Assembly (NCBI GenBank): GCA_017645245.1
Contig: JAGCPG010000061.1
Span: 1-37,998, forward strand
Origin: Bacteroidales bacterium
Lineage (GTDB): Bacteria; Bacteroidota; Bacteroidia; Bacteroidales; F082
Length of the DNA: 37,998 bases
Direction: 5' to 3'
Positions 18,040-25,808 of the stretch are shown here, piece by piece (position 1 is the first letter of the stretch; every line of letters begins with the position of its first letter). The position numbers and the translations under genes were made by a program. The notes beneath the pieces are model-generated. The model worked only from the letters and a program-made list of their open reading frames with translations, was not told where the DNA came from and searched no databases.

Positions 18040-18276
18040 TTATGAATTATTTTTCAACTGGAATTTTTCTTTTTGGTATTCCGAAAAGCACTTGAAGAAA
18101 TCATAGCCCAGCAGGTCGCTGATTTTGAGGAGCATGTCGGTATAGATCCATGGACGGTTGAGGATTTTATAGATGTTCTGTCTGGAGCAGCCCAATTGTT
18201 TTCCGAGCCATGTGATGGTACGGCCTTGCTGCTGGAGCACTTGTTTGATGATATGTCCGATATGGGGCTCTTCCAT
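18040..18276 (-). CDS. Small XRE-like helix-turn-helix regulator, copy 1
   Basis: 78 residues. A helix-turn-helix is plain: IIKQVLQQQGRTITWLGKQL, then GCSRQNIYKIL as turn and recognition helix, followed by YTDMLLKISDLLGYDFF. It is a close paralogue of the protein at 22810-23037, and the ~220-nt leader is duplicated as well. Proteins of this kind occur singly in Bacteroidales, often with accessory genes. No partner gene is directly downstream; 100 bp of AT-rich sequence and then the RelB-PIN pair follow. Target unknown. Confidence 0.8.
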   Translation of the reverse strand: MEEPHIGHIIKQVLQQQGRTITWLGKQLGCSRQNIYKILNRPWIYTDMLLKISDLLGYDFFKCFSEYQKEKFQLKNNS

Positions 18277-18639: not shown

Positions 18640-19017
18640 CTACTTTTCCTTTTTTTCTCCATAATAATCACAAACCCTATCATAAATCTCATCTACCGCA
18701 GCTCCAATAACTATCTTCCCCATGGCTCCAACTCCGCCAGTAGCGGAAGTAACAGCAGAAGTAATCGTAATAGTCAAGGCACCTTTCGTTACCTTTTTTA
18801 CAAATCTGTTATTACAGAAAACTTCATATAAATCATCGTCTGTCTTTGCAACTTTGATTTCATATGTCATCTGTGCTTTGTCATCTTCGATAACATTTAC
18901 ATTTCCATATGATACTATGGCTACATCTTTTGTAATTTGAATTCTTTGTTGAGCTGCAACTTTGTTAAAACAAGCTACAGTTCCAATCAAACAAATAAAC
19001 AATAGAAACTTTTTCAT
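18640..19017 (-). CDS. Small exported protein of unknown function (gene A of the leader family)
   Basis: 125 residues. Signal peptide about 1-22 (FLLFICLIGTVACFNKVAAQ). The mature part begins with beta-rich sequence (VAIVSYGNVNVIEDDKAQMTYEIKV), then a glycine/alanine/threonine segment (about 80-105) that could lie in or along a membrane, and a charged end. I recognise no family. It is last in a run of three minus-strand exported-protein genes (20796 to 18640) and is preceded by the shared leader hairpin (11 nt before ATG) and followed by a terminator. Confidence 0.7.
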   Translation of the reverse strand: MKKFLLFICLIGTVACFNKVAAQQRIQITKDVAIVSYGNVNVIEDDKAQMTYEIKVAKTDDDLYEVFCNNRFVKKVTKGALTITITSAVTSATGGVGAMGKIVIGAAVDEIYDRVCDYYGEKKEK

Positions 19018-19174
19018 TTTTCATTATTACCCTGTTATTCCATCGGGCCAATCGATCTTTTTTTACTTGGATTTCTACTCTTTTATTTCTTTCGTAATTC
19101 TCATAAGAGGTACTTGGCACTAAAGGTTCTGTTTCGCCCTTGCTATCAATTTCAATTCTTTCACAATTAAACAC
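18965..19174 (-). pseudogene. OmpA-like C-terminal fragment joined to the gene A leader
   Basis: The frame reads RIEIDSKGETEPLVPSTSYE then NYERNKRVEIQVKK, closely resembling the last strand-helix-strand of OmpA/MotB peptidoglycan-binding domains (GxGExxP ... N..NRRVEI). Nothing upstream encodes the rest of the domain. After QVKK, where an OmpA protein would normally stop, the frame runs straight into the shared leader element at 19029-19055 and on to a late stop. It looks like the 3' scar of a lost gene cut exactly at the repeat. The homology covers about 19058-19174 only. Confidence 0.45.
19029..19055 (-). promoter_or_regulatory. Shared leader hairpin, copy A
   Basis: On the minus strand GCCC (19048-45) can pair with GGGT (19032-29) around a 12-nt loop containing GATGGAATAAC; it ends 11 nt before the ATG at 19017. 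The mini-ORF start in the loop gives Met-Glu-stop here. See copies B, C and D. Confidence 0.6.
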
Positions 19175-19249
19175 CTTGCACCACCAAGCACATTTCGTGA
19201 TTACAAATAATACAAGATTAAGGTGGGTAATTCCGCAAATTATTGAATA

Positions 19250-19612
19250 CTATTTCACAGAGGTAATTTTAATTCTTTTCGTCTCACAGCCAGATGAACA
19301 TGAGCGGCATGCCTCTTTTTTGGAAAGTGTTTTTGTGGTTTCAGAATGATAACCTTGCGCAGAAGCACCAGGAATAGAATAGCAACCATTTCCAACCTCA
19401 CTACCTTGGTCATTGTAAACACTGACGCAGACTTCTATTGATTTTGTGGAATTGTTGTAGAATGTGATAGATGTAGATGTTTGACTGTCATCTGAAACAG
19501 AGACGAGAACCGTGTTACCAGAATCACCCGGAACATTTGCTTTGTCTTGTTGAGCATTTGCTACAAAGGCGAATCCGATTACAGCTAATCCTACTAAGAG
19601 TATATTCTTCAT
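19250..19612 (-). CDS. Small exported cysteine-containing protein (gene B of the leader family)
   Basis: 120 residues from ATG 19612 (MKNILLVGLAVIG). Longer starts at 19618 and 19639 are in frame, but the latter lies in the loop of the leader hairpin; start 19612 restores the 9-11 nt hairpin spacing of the other copies. Signal peptide about 1-20 (ends FVANAQQ). The mature part is Ser/Thr-rich beta sequence (TSITFYNNSTKSIEVCVSVY) with two Cys pairs near the end (ACRSCSSGCET), possibly disulfide-bonded. No recognised family. Only 17 bp separate its leader from the stop of the upstream gene, so it is inside an operon. Confidence 0.7.
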   Translation of the reverse strand: MKNILLVGLAVIGFAFVANAQQDKANVPGDSGNTVLVSVSDDSQTSTSITFYNNSTKSIEVCVSVYNDQGSEVGNGCYSIPGASAQGYHSETTKTLSKKEACRSCSSGCETKRIKITSVK

Positions 19613-19622
19613 TTTCATTTTT

Positions 19623-19651
19623 GCCAGGTTATATCCCATTAGGCTCGTCGG
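19623..19651 (-). promoter_or_regulatory. Shared leader hairpin, copy B
   Basis: Minus strand GCC (19644-42) and GGC (19625-23) flank the conserved loop AATGGGATATAACC, followed 10 nt later by ATG 19612. The stem is the weakest of the four. The mini-ORF start in the loop is in frame with the gene. Confidence 0.55.
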
Positions 19652-19668
19652 TGTGTTACGTTAATATT

Positions 19669-20796
19669 TTATTTGATTTTTGGGTCAATAAATTGTAATT
19701 TGATGTTTTCTATTTCTCGTGTGCTGGAGATATTGAAGAAAAGATCGGACCAATCCAAGTAATCAAAAGTGTTGGCCTGCATAATGAAAGAACAGGCATC
19801 TGTAAACGTATATTCCTGGTCGTCTCCGAAATACTTTACTTTAATATTAACTTGATTGCAACTGAGTTTGACTTTTCGATCATTATAAAGGTTGTTGTAA
19901 AACATTTTGCCGGATTCTTTGTCAATTCCTAAAGCCACAGAAATGTCTTCGTCAATAAGGAACTTAATTAAATTATTCTTTGTAAGAAGGTGAGTCTCGC
20001 TGTTGTATTCCCTAAATTCATATAGATTCGTTTCAGATGATTTCTGAATGCTCACTCTGTCTTCTTGATTTTCGGCTTTGTCAACGGCTTTTTGCCACAG
20101 CTTCTCAAATACATCTTGTTCCTCCTGATCCTCGGCTTCGTCAATGACTTTTTGCCATATTTTTTCAATTATATCTTGACACTCCTTTTCAGTTTTGGAA
20201 TCAGAGGAGGAAACGCCTATCATGTTTTCATTTCTTGATTCAGAATAATTGTCATTATAGTTGTCCACGATTGGCTGTTCTGCTTCTCTTTGTCGCCTTG
20301 CTCTTTCGGCTCTTTCTTGGGCAATTTTATCCTGTAATTCTATTGCGGATTCAGCAGCAGAGTAGCCAATAGTCGTATTCCTTTTGTTTAAAGCTTCTTG
20401 CTGGTCTATTCCGTTTGTTATGTCCTGTTTGTATTCACGATTTGCGTTGTTGATTTGGTTGGCACTATTCAAATACGTGTCATATTGATAATTGCCTGTG
20501 GCGTTCATAATAGTTTGAGCACCTTGAATTACAGCTCCCGTATAATTGCCTTGGGTTGCATCCTTAGTGGCATTTCTTGCTTTTTGGTTTGTATTAACCG
20601 AATTGTTGATTGTGTTGAGGTTGTTTTTCATTGACTCCTTTTCTTGGCTGGAATAGCTACTGGATTTATCAATGTGGTTTTCTAGCAGAGCGGAACCAAC
20701 CCCTAAGAGGATTTCTCCCCAACCCTGCGCAAAACTAACTGGCGTTGTCAACATGATAAATGTTAAAACAACCATTATAGTAATTCTTTTTCGCAT
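19669..20796 (-). CDS. Exported protein with coiled-coil region (gene C of the leader family)
   Basis: 375 residues. Signal peptide about 1-23 (TIMVVLTFIMLTTPVSFAQ). Residues about 40-170 are Asn/Gln/Ala-rich and helical, including a heptad-like charged stretch (QDKIAQERAERARRQREAEQ). Residues about 205-250 hold two 20-residue repeats (EKIWQKVIDEAEDQEEQ and EKLWQKAVDKAENQEDR), encoded by a 60-bp tandem repeat. The C-terminal ~120 residues are beta-rich. No family recognised. First gene of a probable three-gene exported-protein operon, with promoter TAACTTTG at 20864-20857 and leader copy C. Confidence 0.7.
   Translation of the reverse strand: MRKRITIMVVLTFIMLTTPVSFAQGWGEILLGVGSALLENHIDKSSSYSSQEKESMKNNLNTINNSVNTNQKARNATKDATQGNYTGAVIQGAQTIMNATGNYQYDTYLNSANQINNANREYKQDITNGIDQQEALNKRNTTIGYSAAESAIELQDKIAQERAERARRQREAEQPIVDNYNDNYSESRNENMIGVSSSDSKTEKECQDIIEKIWQKVIDEAEDQEEQDVFEKLWQKAVDKAENQEDRVSIQKSSETNLYEFREYNSETHLLTKNNLIKFLIDEDISVALGIDKESGKMFYNNLYNDRKVKLSCNQVNIKVKYFGDDQEYTFTDACSFIMQANTFDYLDWSDLFFNISSTREIENIKLQFIDPKIK
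20061..20180 (-). repeat. 60-bp tandem repeat inside gene C
   Basis: Two adjacent 60-bp units share the sequence for WQK-x-x-D-x-AE-x-QE. Most differences are third-position changes, consistent with duplication kept under protein selection. Confidence 0.75.
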
Positions 20797-20958
20797 AACA
20801 TCATTGCCTGTTATATCCCATCAGGCCCATCGGTTTTTATTATTAATAAGGTTGGTCAAAGTTAAATAAAAATTCATAATTAATTGAATATCAGCGTAAT
20901 CAATAATAAGTAAGCATTTATTATTTTTTGTTGTCGAAAATGTCAATTGTTGGTTTAC
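20797..20958 (-). promoter_or_regulatory. Promoter and upstream region of gene C
   Basis: TAACTTTG on the minus strand (20864-20857) matches the -7 consensus; the equivalent box occurs at the same distance before gene D. Beyond it, 20892-20958 is a diverged copy of the repeat at 25166-25232 (42 of 67 positions identical by eye, no gaps). The rest up to 21060 is AT-rich with nothing else recognised. Confidence 0.55.
20806..20833 (-). promoter_or_regulatory. Shared leader hairpin, copy C
   Basis: Minus strand GCCTG (20826-22) pairs perfectly with CAGGC (20810-06) around the loop ATGGGATATAA, 9 nt before ATG 20796. The mini-ORF from the loop ATG (20821) reads MGYNRQ and stops 4 nt before the gene start. 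The conserved block continues upstream to ACCGATG. Confidence 0.65.
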
Positions 20959-21060
20959 ACAATTCACATCTTGTAAAGGATGTTGTTTTACGTTGCAACC
21001 AGCTGAAAAACAGTATGTGATCAAAAATTTCGACTGGATCTCTTTTTGATAGTTTTTCCC

Positions 21061-21068
21061 TATCTTTG
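21061..21068 (+). promoter_or_regulatory. -7 box of the GreA-like/Nudix-like fusion gene
   Basis: TATCTTTG ends only 7 nt before the ATG at 21076, so the mRNA is probably leaderless or nearly so. Confidence 0.6.
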
Positions 21069-21075
21069 CAAAGCA

Positions 21076-22110
21076 ATGAGTAGAGGATTCATCAAAGAAG
21101 GCGATCAGGAAGAGATTCCGATGGTGCCACTGAGGGCCTTCCTGCCGGAGGGCGTGCCCAATTATGTCACCAAAGAAGGGCTCGCGGCGCTCAACCAAGA
21201 GCTGGAAAGCCTTCAGGAAGAGCTTGCCAAGACTGGCGACAATTACATTATGAGCAACTTCATCGAAGCGAAGATGAAGTTGCTCATCAGTCGCATTAAT
21301 AGTGCCGTTGAAGTCGATCTATCCAAGGCCAAAAAAGACAGGGTGAGCTTTGGGGCGTGGGTACGCTACAATGGGCGCGTAGTGAGAATCGTGGGTGTAG
21401 ATGAAGCCGACATTAACAAAGGTCTCATCTCATTCACCTCACCGCTAGCCAAGGCATTGACAGGGAAGAAGGCCGGAGCTGTTTTTGAAATGAAAGGGGC
21501 TCGTGGCATGGAAAGAATCACCATTGAGGAAGTGACGTTTGTGCCGATGGCGCTGACACAGATGGTGAGTGACAATTCCACACCATCCACACCTCCATCA
21601 GCACCGGCATCAACAACAGCGGCAACAACCGTCAAAAAGGGCCCCGTTCAGATTGATCAGAGTCAACTGAAGATTAGTGAAAATGCCACTGACTCACCAG
21701 CCAAGACCGACGGATCACTTCGATTCGAGCCCGAGACCAATGTCATGGAATTCCTGCCTATAGTCAACGAGCGTGGCAACATCGTTGGAAGGGCATTGTA
21801 TATGGAGTTGCACAACGGCAACAAGATGCTCCACCCTGTCGCGCACCTGCATGTTTTAAACGGCAAGGGAGAGACCATTAAGCGTTACTGGTGGCATGTG
21901 GCGTTTGGCGATACTCCAGAGAAAACGCTCAAACGGAAAATGCAGGAAATCCTTGGTTTATCGGGGGTGAAACCGTTGTTGAAGCGGCAATATATCAGGG
22001 AGACCAAAACCGAAAAAGAACTTGTTTACGTTTTCACCATTGTCTCCGAAGAAGACCTGCCACAGACTCCTGAAGGGAAAGATTACAGCGAGGTTTTTGA
22101 GAAAGATTAA
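21076..22110 (+). CDS. GreA/GreB-like protein fused to a degenerate Nudix-like domain
   Basis: 344 residues from ATG 21076 (MSRGFIKEGDQEEIP); an earlier in-frame start lies before the promoter. Residues about 1-155 match the Bacteroidota GreA/GreB-related family: coiled coil (LAALNQELESLQEELAK) then the FKBP-like end with RFGA-type strand (SFGAWVRYN), VGVDEAD and SPLAKALTGKKAG. A Ser/Thr/Pro-rich linker (about 165-190) leads to a C-terminal domain (about 225-344) resembling IPP-isomerase-type Nudix folds: ERGNIVGRALYMELHNGNKM, LHPVAHLHVLN. Its Nudix box reads GDTPEKTLKRKMQEILGL: the REUxEE metal ligands are mostly replaced, so hydrolase activity is doubtful. Possibly an RNA-polymerase-binding regulator with a ligand-sensing tail. 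Confidence 0.75.
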   Translation: MSRGFIKEGDQEEIPMVPLRAFLPEGVPNYVTKEGLAALNQELESLQEELAKTGDNYIMSNFIEAKMKLLISRINSAVEVDLSKAKKDRVSFGAWVRYNGRVVRIVGVDEADINKGLISFTSPLAKALTGKKAGAVFEMKGARGMERITIEEVTFVPMALTQMVSDNSTPSTPPSAPASTTAATTVKKGPVQIDQSQLKISENATDSPAKTDGSLRFEPETNVMEFLPIVNERGNIVGRALYMELHNGNKMLHPVAHLHVLNGKGETIKRYWWHVAFGDTPEKTLKRKMQEILGLSGVKPLLKRQYIRETKTEKELVYVFTIVSEEDLPQTPEGKDYSEVFEKD

Positions 22111-22116
22111 AAATTT

Positions 22117-22635
22117 TTAGTCATTACTATTGCGAGATTCAATATTTTGCAATAACTTTGCAACAGTTATGGAGTTGTTAGATGTTCGGGGGAGAGGATT
22201 GCTTTGGTCGTCTCCAAGTGTCCCATCTAACAGCTCTATTTCTTTTACCTCATAGCTGTAAGCCTTAGTCTTCTCATTCTCATTATTGTAACGCTTCACT
22301 GTAGTCTTCACACGGAACACCTTACAGTCAATCTCAATGGCCCCGAAAAGCCTAACAATATCCTTTAAATTCTCGTTATTGTTCTTGTCAGCGTGTATTT
22401 CACTAACAATGGATTCCTCGATTATTCTTGGAAGCACATGCAACGCCGACAAGTGGACATTCTTACTATCACTCTTCCCTACAGCTTTCTGACTTAAGTA
22501 TTTGTCAACGGCTGTCCCTGATATATTCACTTCGCCAATCTCGGGTTGTTGAACACTTCCCACAATGTTTTCCTTTGCCCATCTACGAGCTTCGGAGAAA
22601 TTCTTGAAGCCGTGGGTCTTGGGGAGCTGATACAA
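22117..22635 (-). CDS. LPD3-like (polyvalent-protein-associated) domain protein
   Basis: 172 residues, no signal peptide. The middle (HLSALHVLPRIIEESIVSE ... IVRLFGAIEIDCKVFRVKTT ... KAYSYEVKEIELL) resembles LPD3-type domains found in large phage and mobile-element polyvalent proteins, often next to nuclease or toxin domains. The N-terminus (FKNFSEARRWAKENIVG) looks like the short segment that usually precedes that domain. Found here as a single-domain gene, so it may be an immunity or toxin relic. It ends 6 bp from the convergent fusion gene. Its promoter is nearly identical to that of the toxin-antitoxin pair at 25506-25971. Confidence 0.5.
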   Translation of the reverse strand: MYQLPKTHGFKNFSEARRWAKENIVGSVQQPEIGEVNISGTAVDKYLSQKAVGKSDSKNVHLSALHVLPRIIEESIVSEIHADKNNNENLKDIVRLFGAIEIDCKVFRVKTTVKRYNNENEKTKAYSYEVKEIELLDGTLGDDQSNPLPRTSNNSITVAKLLQNIESRNSND

Positions 22636-22660
22636 TATTGATTATTCTTTCGTTTTCCAT

Positions 22661-22705
22661 GATACAGTTTTCCCTTTGTTCGGATTACCCGACGTTCACT
22701 GTATC
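22661..22705 (-). promoter_or_regulatory. Inverted repeat in the LPD3-like gene leader
   Basis: GATACAGT (22661-68) and ACTGTATC (22698-705) are perfect 8-bp inverted arms 29 nt apart, between promoter and start codon. Either an operator or an RNA hairpin. Confidence 0.5.
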
Positions 22706-22735
22706 TCGGACGCAAATGTGCTAAACTGGATTTCT

Positions 22736-22785
22736 TTTGAAATCACTCTGCAAAAATAAAGAATCTTTTAATACACCGCAAGGGG
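22736..22785 (-). promoter_or_regulatory. Promoter cassette, copy 1 (LPD3-like gene)
   Basis: A 50-bp block, 48 of 50 bases identical to 25981-26030. On the minus strand it holds TTG (22781-79), 20 bp, and TATTTTTG (22758-51), an excellent Bacteroidota promoter. The leader to ATG 22635 is about 110 nt. Confidence 0.75.
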
Positions 22786-22809
22786 ATTTTTGGTTATTTC
22801 AACAAATCA

Positions 22810-23037
22810 TCATGATTTCTTTTTGTTTTCCCGACACTCCGAAAAACACCTAAAGAAATCGTAATCCAACAAATCACTGATCTTGAGCAGCATGTCGGTG
22901 TAAATCCAATTGCGGCGGAGGATTTTGTAGATGTTCTGCCGTGAGCAGCCCAGTTGCTTGCCGACCCAAGTAATGGAGCGGCCTTGTTGATGGAGCACTT
23001 CCCTGATGAGGTTTCCGATGTGGGGTTCTTCGGTCAT
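22810..23037 (-). CDS. Small XRE-like helix-turn-helix regulator, copy 2
   Basis: 75 residues from ATG 23037 (MTEEPHIGNLIREVLHQQGR). An in-frame start at 23157 would add 40 residues, but copy 1 lacks that extension and its upstream sequence is conserved as DNA, not as protein. The HTH (GCSRQNIYKILRRNWIYTDM) is almost the same as copy 1 at 18040-18276, including the YTDMLLKISDLL tail. Downstream lies the promoter cassette of the LPD3-like gene. Target unknown; the two copies may regulate each other or the same site. Confidence 0.8.
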   Translation of the reverse strand: MTEEPHIGNLIREVLHQQGRSITWVGKQLGCSRQNIYKILRRNWIYTDMLLKISDLLDYDFFRCFSECRENKKKS

Positions 23038-23294
23038 GGCGTTTGCCTTGAGTTGTAGCCTTTCGCCCGAAGCAAACAAAGAGGGCGGAACCATTTGTTT
23101 GCTTACTTGATACAGAAGGCTCGGCAAAGCCCGTAAAAGCAAATAAACAACAAACAACTCACGCCCTAAGGACGCAAGCTATTCGCTCCTTATTCTTCTT
23201 TTACTTCAAATTGCCGATTCTCTGTATAAGAATAAGAGCTAAAGCTCGGATTACTATTTATATGACAAAATTACAATTATTTTTGCATAAACAA
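23038..23294 (-). promoter_or_regulatory. Long structured leader and promoter of XRE regulator copy 2
   Basis: No gene here. TTG (23294-92), 18 bp, TAATTTTG (23273-66) make a good promoter, giving a ~220-nt leader. Pairings on the transcript: GAGC/GCUC around UUUA, CUUAUUCUU with AAGAAUAAG, and a 9-bp AAGCAAACA/UGUUUGCUU stem (two pairs longer than in copy 1) enclosing the conserved GGUUCCGCCCUC segment. The stretch 23295-23366 is AT-rich with nothing recognised. Confidence 0.65.
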
Positions 23295-23366
23295 TCATTT
23301 ATTGAAAAAAATGGAGAGCATCATTTAGACACACCCCAATTAATGAATTTCCAAGTGAGTTCTTTT

Positions 23367-24293
23367 TTATTCTTCTTTAACCAATCTGAAAAAAGCCGAG
23401 ATCTCCTCTTGGTCCAACACCATGCGAACATCGAATTCCTTTTCTTGTGACATATAGCCGTCTTTCTCACAACGTAGTATGATGCACACATTACTAGATA
23501 CTTGATAAGTAAGTCCGCGGATGTCCAACGCTTTGGTGGCTTCATAAGGCGTGGTTTGGAGATATTTATTATTAGTGCTTTTTACTTCAGGGGTCTTACT
23601 AACCACGCGCCAGAATATGTCGGCACCTTGTGGACGTGGTTGCACATCCCAACGGACAATAGTCTGCTCCAAAGCCGTATCACCAAACCCTTGCACCTGT
23701 TTTTGAGGTTCGTCTTTAGCTAGTTGTTCCGTGCGAAGGAAAGATGCAATACGGTTCCAGTTGATTTGCTCAAGGGCTGAAGTATAAGCTTCATCAAGAA
23801 CCAAATTATATACATAGAACGGATATTTTCTTCGTCTTGAGTCATCGTTGTAAATTCCGGTTTTACTGATTGTAATACCTTTTTGCGAATACACTTCTTT
23901 GTCTTTCGAGTCCTTAAGACTTACACTGATTTCAACATTAGCTGTGTATAATGAAACAATATCAGCTTTGTTTATTGTTATATATAGATAATAGTCTGTA
24001 CTTGGGGATGATTCTGTCAAACCCATTGAACGCACATAATTAACTGTTGGTGCAATAAAAAAACTTTTATCAGATAAATGGTATAAATCTCCTGTGCTTT
24101 GACTATTGGGAGTTGTTGTAATAACATGAGTTTCAAGACCATATTTGAGATCATGAAAAGTCATCATTGGATCGCGTTTTATGATAACATCTTTACAATT
24201 TGCATTAAGAGAGTTTAGGTTTACAGTTGCACAACTCGTAATAACACAAATGGCAATCATGAACAATGCAATAATAAGTAATGTCTTTTTCAT
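23367..24293 (-). CDS. Lipoprotein with shared C-terminal module (lipoprotein 1)
   Basis: 308 residues. Signal peptide with lipobox ITSC (Cys at about 20), so lipid-anchored. The N-terminal ~190 residues are a beta-rich domain I do not recognise (for example STDYYLYITINKADIVSLYT, VEISVSLKDSKDKEVYS). The C-terminal ~115 residues, from about TIVRWDVQPRPQGADIFWRV to FFRLVKEE, are nearly the same as in lipoprotein 2 directly upstream. Starts 20 bp after lipoprotein 2 ends, so the two form an operon. Function unknown; the C-terminal module may be an envelope attachment or partner-binding domain. Confidence 0.7.
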   Translation of the reverse strand: MKKTLLIIALFMIAICVITSCATVNLNSLNANCKDVIIKRDPMMTFHDLKYGLETHVITTTPNSQSTGDLYHLSDKSFFIAPTVNYVRSMGLTESSPSTDYYLYITINKADIVSLYTANVEISVSLKDSKDKEVYSQKGITISKTGIYNDDSRRRKYPFYVYNLVLDEAYTSALEQINWNRIASFLRTEQLAKDEPQKQVQGFGDTALEQTIVRWDVQPRPQGADIFWRVVSKTPEVKSTNNKYLQTTPYEATKALDIRGLTYQVSSNVCIILRCEKDGYMSQEKEFDVRMVLDQEEISAFFRLVKEE

Positions 24294-24313
24294 TGATGTT
24301 CTATTTTTTGGTT

Positions 24314-25069
24314 TTATTCTTCTTTTACCAATCTAAAAAATGCCGAAATCTCTTCCTGATCAAGTACCATGCGCACATCAAATTCCTTTTCTTGTGGCAT
24401 ATAGCCGTCTTTCTCACAACGCAAGATGATGCGCACATTGCTCGAGGTTTGATAAGTGAGTCCTTTGATGTCCAAAGCCTTGGTGGCTTCGTAAGGAGTG
24501 GTCATTAGATACTTGTTGTTGGTACTCTTCACCTCTGGAGTCTTGCTAACCACACGCCAGGAGATATCTGCTCCTTGCGGACGAGACTGAACATCCCAAC
24601 GGACAATAGTGTTTTCCAACACAGTTGTTCCCCAACCTTCGACTTGGTTAGTCGGTTCATCTTTGGGAAGCTGTTCAACATGACTACTATTCTTTTTGGG
24701 TTTCATATAAATAGTGTAATTCTTTTTTGAGGGTTTCATAATAGCTCCGTCTGCCGCATCAATAGCCCAACCGATCACATCTGTCAAATTTAGAATCGAC
24801 ACGGCGTTGAATGTTTTATCCACAGTCACGGATCCTTCCATATCAGGATTCTCAGCTTCAATAACAGAAGGCTTAAAACCTCTTTTGACTTTAATCTTTG
24901 CAGGGAACGACACATTATTGTATTTTTCCCCATCCACAGTTAAATTTGCCCAGGACACATTGGGGCTGGTCACAGTAACTTTTGCCCTTGTGCCAGAAAA
25001 GATTGTAGCACATGAAGGGAGAAGAATTATAGCGGAAAAAACCGCTAATAATAGTAATGTTTTTTTCAT
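24314..25069 (-). CDS. PEGA-like lipoprotein with shared C-terminal module (lipoprotein 2; gene D of the leader family)
   Basis: 251 residues. Lipobox LPSC (Cys at about 20) followed by ATIFSGTRAKVTVTS. Residues about 28-85 look like a PEGA-type beta domain (ANLTVDGEKYNNVSFPAKIK, then VKRGFKPSVIEAE), then a hydrophobic Gly/Ala segment (DVIGWAIDAADGAI), a pattern known from Bacteroidales lipoproteins annotated as T4SS-like or 'SCATIF' proteins. The C-terminal ~115 residues repeat in lipoprotein 1. First gene of the pair, with promoter TAACTTTG (25137-25130) and leader copy D; the mini-ORF in that leader overlaps this start as ATGA. Confidence 0.7.
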   Translation of the reverse strand: MKKTLLLLAVFSAIILLPSCATIFSGTRAKVTVTSPNVSWANLTVDGEKYNNVSFPAKIKVKRGFKPSVIEAENPDMEGSVTVDKTFNAVSILNLTDVIGWAIDAADGAIMKPSKKNYTIYMKPKKNSSHVEQLPKDEPTNQVEGWGTTVLENTIVRWDVQSRPQGADISWRVVSKTPEVKSTNNKYLMTTPYEATKALDIKGLTYQTSSNVRIILRCEKDGYMPQEKEFDVRMVLDQEEISAFFRLVKEE

Positions 25070-25078
25070 TTATTCATT

Positions 25079-25107
25079 GCCCAGTTATATACCATCGGGC
25101 TTGTCGG
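25079..25107 (-). promoter_or_regulatory. Shared leader hairpin, copy D
   Basis: Minus strand GCCC (25100-97) pairs with GGGC (25082-79) around GATGGTATATAACT, 9 nt before ATG 25069. Compared with copy C the inner pair has changed from T-A to C-G on both sides. The mini-ORF from the loop ATG (25095) reads MVYNWAMNK and its TGA overlaps the gene ATG. Confidence 0.65.
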
Positions 25108-25129
25108 TTTTAGTTTATAATAAGTTTGT

Positions 25130-25137
25130 CAAAGTTA
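25130..25137 (-). promoter_or_regulatory. -7 box of the lipoprotein operon
   Basis: TAACTTTG on the minus strand, aligned with the box before gene C; the region between this box and the leader hairpin is also similar in the two copies. Confidence 0.55.
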
Positions 25138-25139
25138 AG

Positions 25140-25232
25140 GACAAACCTTATGGAGCACTGAAGAACAGCGTCATCGATATTGAGCCAGATAATGTGCTTA
25201 TTAATTGTCAGAAATGTAAACCAACTGTTTAC
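25140..25232. repeat. 93-bp direct repeat, copy 1
   Basis: Matches 25417-25509 without gaps at 76 of 93 positions by eye; a third, more diverged partial copy is at 20892-20958. On the plus strand both full copies stay open in the same frame (SVIDIE core), but there is no convincing start, so coding is doubtful. It lies directly upstream of the gene D promoter. Confidence 0.75.
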
Positions 25233-25258
25233 TATCTTTGATAATCAATCAAAAATAA

Positions 25259-25296
25259 GGCTAAAAGGAAAGAGCTCGGAAAATACCGAACTCTTT
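25259..25296 (-). terminator. Terminator hairpin in the repeat region
   Basis: On the minus strand AAAGAGTTCGG (25296-86) pairs with CCGAGCTCTTT (25279-69), 11 bp with one G-U pair, loop of 6, followed by CCTTTTAG. The wobble is stable only in the minus transcript, which gives the direction. It would end transcripts from the toxin operon or from the promoter at 25414. Confidence 0.65.
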
Positions 25297-25414
25297 ACCA
25301 ATGAAAACTAAATTGTTTAACCCCTCAACTTTGGAGTCACCTCGTTGAAAGGTCATACATCTTATTTAGAGCCTTTTTATTTCCCAACACATCCAATTTG
25401 GTTTGACAAAAATA
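25297..25414 (-). ncRNA. Possible small transcript between promoter-like box and terminator
   Basis: TATTTTTG (25414-25407, minus) precedes about 110 nt ending in the terminator at 25259-25296. A small hairpin TTCAAC/GTTGA lies near 25340. The only ATG frames are under ten codons. It could be a small RNA or the remnant of a leader that lost its gene. The stretch 25233-25258 holds nothing else recognised. Confidence 0.3.
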
Positions 25415-25416
25415 AA

Positions 25417-25509
25417 GACAAACCATTTAGAGCACTGAATTACAGCGTTATCGATATTGAGCGAGAAAGTATGCTTTTTAATTTTCGGAAATGTAAACTG
25501 ATAGTTTAC
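25417..25509. repeat. 93-bp direct repeat, copy 2
   Basis: Second full copy of the repeat at 25140-25232; its right end touches the stop codon of the ParE-like toxin at 25506. Confidence 0.75.
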
Positions 25510-25808
25510 CGAACACTTGAATGGAGTATTCTATCTACGAAAACCGTTTCGTCTTCAACATGAAACACAAAAGCCCATTTATGATTATGGGATACCATCC
25601 GACGAGCGTTTGGATGAATGGCTTGAATTGTTTTTGAATGGCTTTCAGAAAAACAGCTGGCGTAAACTGATAATGATTTCGCCTCCTGTCTCATGAAATC
25701 AAGATAACGATATGCTGATTCTATAGACAAATTTTCAAACAAGAAATCCGCCAACTCTTCAATGTCAATCTCGGCGGTGTCAAGGATTTTGACATTATAG
25801 GTTTTCAT
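25506..25808 (-). CDS. RelE/ParE family toxin
   Basis: 100 residues with the ParE/RelE layout: VKILDTAEIDIEELADFLFE (first strand and helix), a second helix, then the C-terminal strands IQAIHPNARRMVSHNHKWAF and VFHVEDETVFVDRILHS. ParE-type members poison DNA gyrase and RelE-type members cut ribosome-bound mRNA; the sequence fits the ParE side better, but I cannot decide. It overlaps the preceding antitoxin gene by 14 bp. The stop lies in the 93-bp repeat. Confidence 0.8.
   Translation of the reverse strand: MKTYNVKILDTAEIDIEELADFLFENLSIESAYRYLDFMRQEAKSLSVYASCFSESHSKTIQAIHPNARRMVSHNHKWAFVFHVEDETVFVDRILHSSVR

Follow-up and report, generated by a model that had tools for sequence, protein, structure and literature searches.

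The DNA examined here (hereafter the window) is a contig of 37,998 nucleotides (nt) from a Bacteroidales bacterium (GenBank assembly GCA_017645245.1, contig JAGCPG010000061.1). It carries, on its minus strand, four copies of a leader element of about 40 nt that looks like an unrecognized switch controlling the translation of the messages in which it lies. Inspection of the window letters confirmed the four minus-strand sites named in the original prediction; the element of about 27 nt described there is real in each case, but it forms part of a longer leader RNA. The copies and their target genes are as follows.

19024..19062, minus strand: copy A of the leader element, a short-loop variant (10 nt) with a UCGA box; ATG at 19017, 16 nt past the loop end
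18640..19017, minus strand: target gene of copy A; 125 amino acids (aa), signal-peptide-like N-terminus, no family above cut-off
19618..19658, minus strand: copy B, internal to an operon; probable start ATG at 19612 (15 nt past the loop end), alternative ATG at 19618 (9 nt past it)
19250..19612, minus strand: target gene of copy B, encoding a protein with a signal-peptide-like N-terminus and no family above cut-off
20801..20840, minus strand: copy C; ATG at 20796, 13 nt past the loop end; promoter-like box TAACTTTG upstream
19669..20796, minus strand: target gene of copy C, encoding a 375-aa protein with a signal-peptide-like N-terminus and no family match
25074..25114, minus strand: copy D; ATG at 25069, 14 nt past the loop end; promoter-like box TAACTTTG upstream
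24314..25069, minus strand: target gene of copy D, encoding a 251-aa protein with a lipoprotein-like N-terminus and no family above cut-off

The element (consensus AAAACCGA-n-stem-RAUGGnAUAUAACn-stem) consists of an A-rich tract, CCGA, usually 2-4 nt, a 4-base-pair (bp) stem, the loop R-AUGGnAUAUAAC-n and the closing stem, followed after about 10 nt by the start codon; the A-rich tract, CCGA and AUGGnAUAUAAC are near-invariant. Copy A is degenerate, with UCGA for CCGA and a loop shorter by 2 nt (AUGGAAUAAC), and the predicted conservation of the loop across the four copies is therefore correct in general and not for this copy. The fourth stem pair of copy B is U-U and the stem of copy C lacks one base. 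The compensating stem changes, which had been taken as a sign of selection on RNA structure, are weak evidence of covariation in these four copies alone; it was in a larger set that such selection became apparent.

A covariance model, R1, was built from 19 copies, among them B and D but not C or A. In the whole genome (2.44 Mb, 145 contigs) this model detected seven copies, including C (E=3.5e-11) and A (E=0.0016), neither of which was in the seed, as well as B (E=4.2e-11) and D (E=7.3e-13), which were. The three copies beyond the window (C128:9648-9687, C121:75068-75108 and C144:2196-2234) each precede an ATG frame. With a second model, R2, the seed of which contains copy A, this copy was found at E=3.5e-6. 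The exact sequence ATGGGATATAAC occurs four times in the genome, always inside an element copy, and its reversed control does not occur; a mismatch-tolerant search of the window with ATGGNATATAAC was uninformative (12 matches with at most 2 mismatches, 8.7 expected). No family of Rfam 15 (4227 families) matched any part of the window at gathering cut-offs, and permissive Rfam scans of window positions 18950-25300 and of four other loci (L009, L011, L012 and L046:1490-1555) gave nothing near any cut-off. None of the papers found in literature searches was recognized as a description of the element, although a supplement may contain it as an unnamed motif.

In all, 411 matches were collected, 335 of them distinct. 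Of these, 17 were rejected on the box or the loop and 318 were kept; dropping another 24, which had no start at 6-25 nt or fewer than three stem pairs, left 294 copies. Four of the 17 rejected matches (L031, L021, L040 and L307) resemble true copies with a shorter spacer, and a few of the kept rows are chance-like. Copy C of the window is itself among the 24 dropped, since its stem, short of one base, was mis-anchored in the automated alignment. The 294-copy set is selected for stem pairs and a nearby start; claims about the stem accordingly use unfiltered sets and model-fitted alignments, of which the latter lean towards structure, and the claim about spacing uses 311 of the 318 rows with neither filter applied, seven rows having too little flanking sequence. 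Copies with 10-nt loops, for the most part AUGnGAUAAC, form a subclass that leaves loop position 23 free and may represent a distinct element type (L265, L286, L288, L300, L328, L359 and L364). Copies that precede similar lipoprotein genes in several species (L018, L028, L029, L039, L040 and L044) have an irregular stem, such as GCCCC/GCGGC; one representative of these lipoprotein genes matches DUF2807.

Pairing in the stem was assessed in 167 distinct copies anchored on the loop only, with no stem filter, from which one copy per cluster of downstream proteins was retained (76 copies). Stem pairs 2-5 were canonical in 62, 73, 71 and 59 of these 76 copies, compared to shuffle means of 46.5, 62.8, 46.8 and 44.2 (p<=0.0005 each), and sliding the right strand by one base reduced the canonical cells from 317 of 380 in register to 166 or 147. 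The pairing percentage or covariation score of three model-fitted alignments, in which 59, 81 and 48 cells had changed on both sides, was reached by none of 500 shuffles. Mismatches were more often G.U than A.C (22 vs 4 in the 76 representatives, p=0.0003; 42 vs 6 in all 167 copies), which indicates that the stem pairs in RNA; on this bias, together with the covariation, a DNA palindrome was rejected. The covariance-model search of Bacteroidales and the statistical covariation check that had been proposed with the original prediction have thus brought further genomic copies and stem pairs that covary beyond controls, and an RNA structure under selection is supported. The pair beside the loop, R19-N32, showed no covariation and was left out of the stem, and the loop is for this reason taken to be 14 nt long. 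As a bare stem-loop the structure is weak, with a median of -2.2 kcal/mol across the 294 copies after removal of those in which a position cannot pair, as would be expected of a fold that depends on a tertiary contact or a ligand.

It is likely, though not proven, that the near-invariant upstream CCG pairs with UGG in the loop and that the element forms an H-type pseudoknot. Among the 290 copies with a 12-nt core loop, the three CCG-UGG pairs are canonical in 286, 288 and 287. The pseudoknot was postulated from the first copies, before L287, L326 and L360 were available. Double compensations in 12-nt loops are found at pair 8-23 (A-U in L188, G-C in L326; shuffle p about 0.001, unadjusted) and at pair 9-22 (U-A in L287; shuffle p about 0.008, unadjusted), and L360, which has a 10-nt loop, shows a double compensation to G-C at pair 8-23. 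Pairs 9-22 and 10-21 hold in all 26 copies with 10-nt loops. G13-C31 is replaced by A-U in two copies, L274 and L297 (p about 0.005, unadjusted), which may point to an additional tertiary pair crossing both helices.

The position of the element is tied to start codons, as had been predicted. The first ATG frame of at least 40 codons starts 12-17 nt past the loop in 278 of 311 copies; when the same measure was taken at shifted points, the counts were 5 of 309 (-150 nt), 2 of 309 (-100 nt), 11 of 304 (+300 nt) and 5 of 233 (+500 nt). In 112 of 289 copies the 60 nt upstream of CCGA contain a promoter-like TAnnTTTG box, vs 16 of 289 for a control segment, with a commonest spacing of 32 nt. The element itself is not a promoter element, in agreement with the original prediction: in copy B the CCGA box lies 17 nt past the stop codon of the preceding gene, and in 29 of 194 testable copies, copy B included, a same-strand open reading frame (ORF) ends within 45 nt of the box and leaves no room for a promoter. 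An upstream ORF or leader peptide beginning at the AUG of the loop was considered and rejected, as start distances of 14 and 15 nt occur in similar numbers, and the frame thus differs, and as the loop codon is the stop codon UAG in 11 of 167 copies.

The downstream proteins of the 294 copies fall into 124 clusters. Signal- or membrane-like N-termini were assigned by a crude predictor to 104 of the 124 clusters and 267 of the 294 copies, compared to 114 of 329 background ORFs of at least 100 aa. The proposal that the target genes encode exported proteins therefore holds for most of them; non-exported small proteins are also found among the targets, and export is a tendency of the targets, not a rule. 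In 71 cluster representatives, 23 Pfam families were matched at E<=0.001, each by one protein, including SPFH, DUF2807, FGE-sulfatase and thioredoxin, and NCBIfam models for radical-SAM target peptides were matched as well. Some element genes encode Cys-rich peptides (L053:2053-2466, L060 and L079:1544-1780).

Within the same genus, 84 of 99 genomes match model R1 at E<=0.1, with a maximum of 10 copies. No model match was found in the near-complete genomes G015, G087, G099, G102 and G120 of this genus; G099 has a single exact loop, inside a long open frame. In an order-wide draw of 393 genomes, 40 match R1 at E<=0.01 and 16 at E<1e-5, and many weaker matches without the loop are chance-like. 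In the families f82, f2 and f80, R2 matched 18 of 31, 30 of 59 and 20 of 61 genomes, respectively. Copy number in f82 is split, as 13 of the 31 genomes have 6-12 copies and the other 18 have at most one (five of them exactly one), which fits a regulon whose factor was gained or lost. A phylum sample of 395 genomes gave the genome of the window and three weak matches only (E 6e-4 to 9e-4). The titles of 62 stretches from named records are Bacteroidales or Bacteroidia, many of them from ruminants or horses and one of them Candidatus Limimorpha caballi. A phage-borne element was considered and rejected, with no exact match in viral contigs (phage and plasmid record collections lay outside the search).

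Taken together, these data suggest, with moderate confidence, that the element is a cis-acting RNA operator of translation, the fold of which is set by a trans-acting factor, most likely an RNA-binding protein. The leader would fold into a 4-bp hairpin with a 14-nt loop, and UGG in the loop would pair with the upstream CCG; the resulting H-type pseudoknot would be compact, its end lying some 10 nt ahead of the start codon. The proposed factor would recognize the A-rich tract, CCGA and AUGGnAUAUAAC, and the fold, held or released where the 30S subunit must land, would set the translation of a dispersed regulon of mostly exported proteins. A translational operator with a trans-acting factor is suggested by a stem-loop that is weak and ends at the 30S landing site and by invariant bases in the loop and CCGA, which imply a reader. 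Bacteroidia ribosomes reportedly fail to recognize Shine-Dalgarno sequences, the pairing being blocked (PMC9976891), and a structured initiation signal is therefore plausible in these organisms. What has been shown computationally is the element itself, the RNA pairing of its stem, a constant position ahead of start codons, its distribution and the range of its genes, and in part the pseudoknot; control of translation, the direction of such control and a protein binder are what we infer from them.

Several results weigh against this interpretation. When stem pairs with changes on both sides were simply counted, a coarser measure, some shuffles did as well as the three model-fitted alignments (3, 58 and 1 of 500). 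In the pseudoknot, pair 8-23 is canonical in only 14 of the 26 copies with 10-nt loops and fails in 12, and two copies with 12-nt loops, L350 and L366, are mismatched. The accessibility predicted for the start codon in 120 leaders (median 0.53 unpaired) gave no information either way. Roughly a sixth of the target clusters do not look exported, and copy numbers in the genus and in families f2 and f80 are graded, not bimodal. No gene was found to be present exactly when the element is, a test over all genes not having been made, and the ligand may be something other than a protein.

If a protein reads the element, the candidate partner suggested by gene neighborhoods is a small Cro/C1-type helix-turn-helix (HTH) protein, two genes for which lie in the window.

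22813..23037, minus strand: Cro/C1-type HTH gene located downstream of the copy D genes (75 aa); belongs to A10 and scores E=1.2e-36 against it
18043..18276, minus strand: second Cro/C1-type HTH gene, located downstream of genes C-B-A (78 aa); belongs to A10 and scores E=2.3e-36 against it

Among ORFs at 63 loci, HTH proteins of this type (about 70-90 aa) were the most recurrent non-target neighbor, at 9 loci compared to at most 4 for any other; the nearest solved relative is 3bs3, a putative DNA-binding protein (E=8.1e-7). An HTH gene lies within 1.3 kb of 28 of the 120 copies that have 1.3 kb of sequence on each side, always on the same strand. All 45 distinct HTH proteins with a listed element are likewise encoded on its strand, and 29 of them end 65-180 nt upstream of the element, in a set that is biased, since the family was discovered via such loci, and that includes one fragment and one more distant HTH protein (L059, L027). 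Of the 115 HTH genes in f82, f2 and f80, 20 have a listed element no more than 3 kb away (1.6 expected), 19 of them on the strand of the element; seen from the elements, only 22 of 191 have such a link to an HTH gene. HTH proteins (E<=1e-8) were found in 34 of 41 genomes with elements vs 14 of 39 without (one-sided p 2e-5, kinship uncorrected) and, in the genus, in 63 of 65 with elements vs 12 of 15 without (one-sided p 0.04, kinship uncorrected). They are thus not present in every element genome, and the association is not strict. Quite different recognition helices beside elements with the same invariant bases also argue against a direct role of these proteins. It is a tentative and rather doubtful suggestion that paralogous small Cro-type HTH proteins might act as RNA-binding repressors or activators, reading in trans the one pseudoknot that the mRNAs have in common, and might thereby control the surface and secreted proteome through translation initiation. 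The family is strongly expanded in three genomes of the same genus, G071, G022 and G018, where its matches (20, 15 and 13) exceed the elements (8, 8 and 4).

Other genes near the copies in the window include a 354-aa ORF at 21046-22110 (plus strand), divergent from copy C, with a GreA/GreB C-terminal domain (E=7.7e-17). Near the element operons are an ORF with an LPD3 polyvalent-protein-associated domain at 22117-22635 (minus strand; E=5.9e-14) and an ORF with a sub-threshold match to ParE toxins at 25506-25808 (minus strand); the LPD3 and ParE-like ORFs are perhaps mobile-element remnants.

The main rivals of a translational operator set by a trans-acting factor are a very small riboswitch and a ribosome-docking enhancer. 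In the former, the pseudoknot itself would directly bind a metabolite or second messenger and mask or free the start region. The size of the element, its H-type pseudoknot and its A/U-rich third loop are like those of the smallest translational riboswitches, such as preQ1-I and SAM-II, its invariant unpaired bases resemble a binding pocket, and the sole candidate protein family does not strictly track the element. The targets, however, share no common pathway, with each of the 23 Pfam families in one of the 71 representatives, and no transporter or biosynthesis theme is seen among them, which leaves a riboswitch as the unlikely but best surviving rival.

The latter would be a structured site that docks on the 30S platform and raises initiation without an additional factor, in a class of bacteria whose 30S subunit hides the anti-Shine-Dalgarno sequence. 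Fixed spacing to the start codon, copies internal to operons and ribosomes reported not to recognize Shine-Dalgarno sequences (PMC9976891) would all be compatible with such a site. A general enhancer should not be missing from the five near-complete genomes named above, though, nor should it split genus-level relatives as seen in f82, and we consider this explanation somewhat less probable than a riboswitch.

A small RNA had been offered, along with a protein, as the possible partner of the element, and it now appears less likely, to the point of being improbable. A long conserved loop near a start codon would suit pairing with a small RNA, and two f82 genomes, G282 and G370, carry the loop's exact complement at the base of a hairpin resembling a terminator (L413:345-410, minus strand, z -3.5, with a matching site in L414); in G370 (L413) this hairpin comes just after an OmpA-like ORF and could belong to a small RNA derived from a 3' end. 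In the genome of the window, by contrast, all four exact loop copies are elements, and no exact antisense RNA was found outside them. The 50 exact loop copies in 16 genomes comprise 44 elements, 4 in long open frames and 2 at that terminator, and hence no antisense copy is common to the genomes with elements. In addition, loop positions 24 and 28 vary, and pure antisense pairing does not demand a covarying stem.

Two further explanations are highly improbable. The element could be a DNA operator of the neighboring Cro-type HTH proteins, a hairpin in appearance only, as the proximity of same-strand HTH genes to 28 of 120 testable copies might suggest, but the stem covaries with mismatches that are G.U and not A.C, the asymmetric spacer is better conserved than the arms, the distance to the start codon is fixed, and the recognition helices differ while the element does not. 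A 5' stabilizer or processing site of the mRNA with no role in initiation would account for the TAnnTTTG box upstream of many copies (112/289 vs 16/289, most often at 32 nt), but not for operon-internal copies or for the tight spacing to the start codon.

If the element is indeed an operator of this kind, it would mark a post-transcriptional regulon that is abundant in Bacteroidales of the gut and rumen, bacteria with little-known translational control and with ribosomes that make no use of Shine-Dalgarno pairing. A single tag of about 40 nt would be common to over 100 unrelated clusters of genes, most of which code for exported proteins without known function, and would provide a shared regulatory label for these genes and a direct handle on the factor that reads it; the five near-complete genomes without the element would serve as useful negatives for tracing that factor.

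Among known systems, translational riboswitches of the preQ1-I, SAM-II and SAM-V types likewise place a small H-type pseudoknot with an A/U-rich third loop before a start codon. SAM-V has been described as an H-type pseudoknot (PMC6061858). The element differs from these riboswitches in its sequence, its lack of a metabolic gene theme and of an Rfam match, and its many copies before unrelated genes. Among candidate structured RNAs of Bacteroidetes, the Flavo-1, Bacteroidales-1, Bacteroides-1 and GUCCY-hairpin motifs have been described (PMC2864571). The window matches no Rfam family at its cut-off; GUCCY-hairpin and Bacteroides-2, which are tabulated there without an Rfam number, fell outside the comparison. 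Bacteroides RbpB is reported to bind noncoding RNAs with a preference for single-stranded regions (PMC11697453). A single-strand preference, as given there, does not describe this element.

Further parallels may be found among protein-bound translational operators, such as the operator hairpin of phage coat proteins and the leader pseudoknot of S15. These likewise place a short stem and an invariant loop over the initiation region, and the reader of the element is likely also a protein; they serve one autoregulated gene, whereas the regulon of the element comprises over 100 gene clusters unrelated to one another. The Cro-type HTH protein Aca2 reportedly binds both operator DNA and stem-loops in its own mRNA. 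Here, too, a Cro-type HTH gene lies beside some of the RNA stem-loops that precede start codons, with RNA binding by its product putative; in contrast to Aca2, the recognition helices vary while the element stays constant, and the regulon is dispersed.

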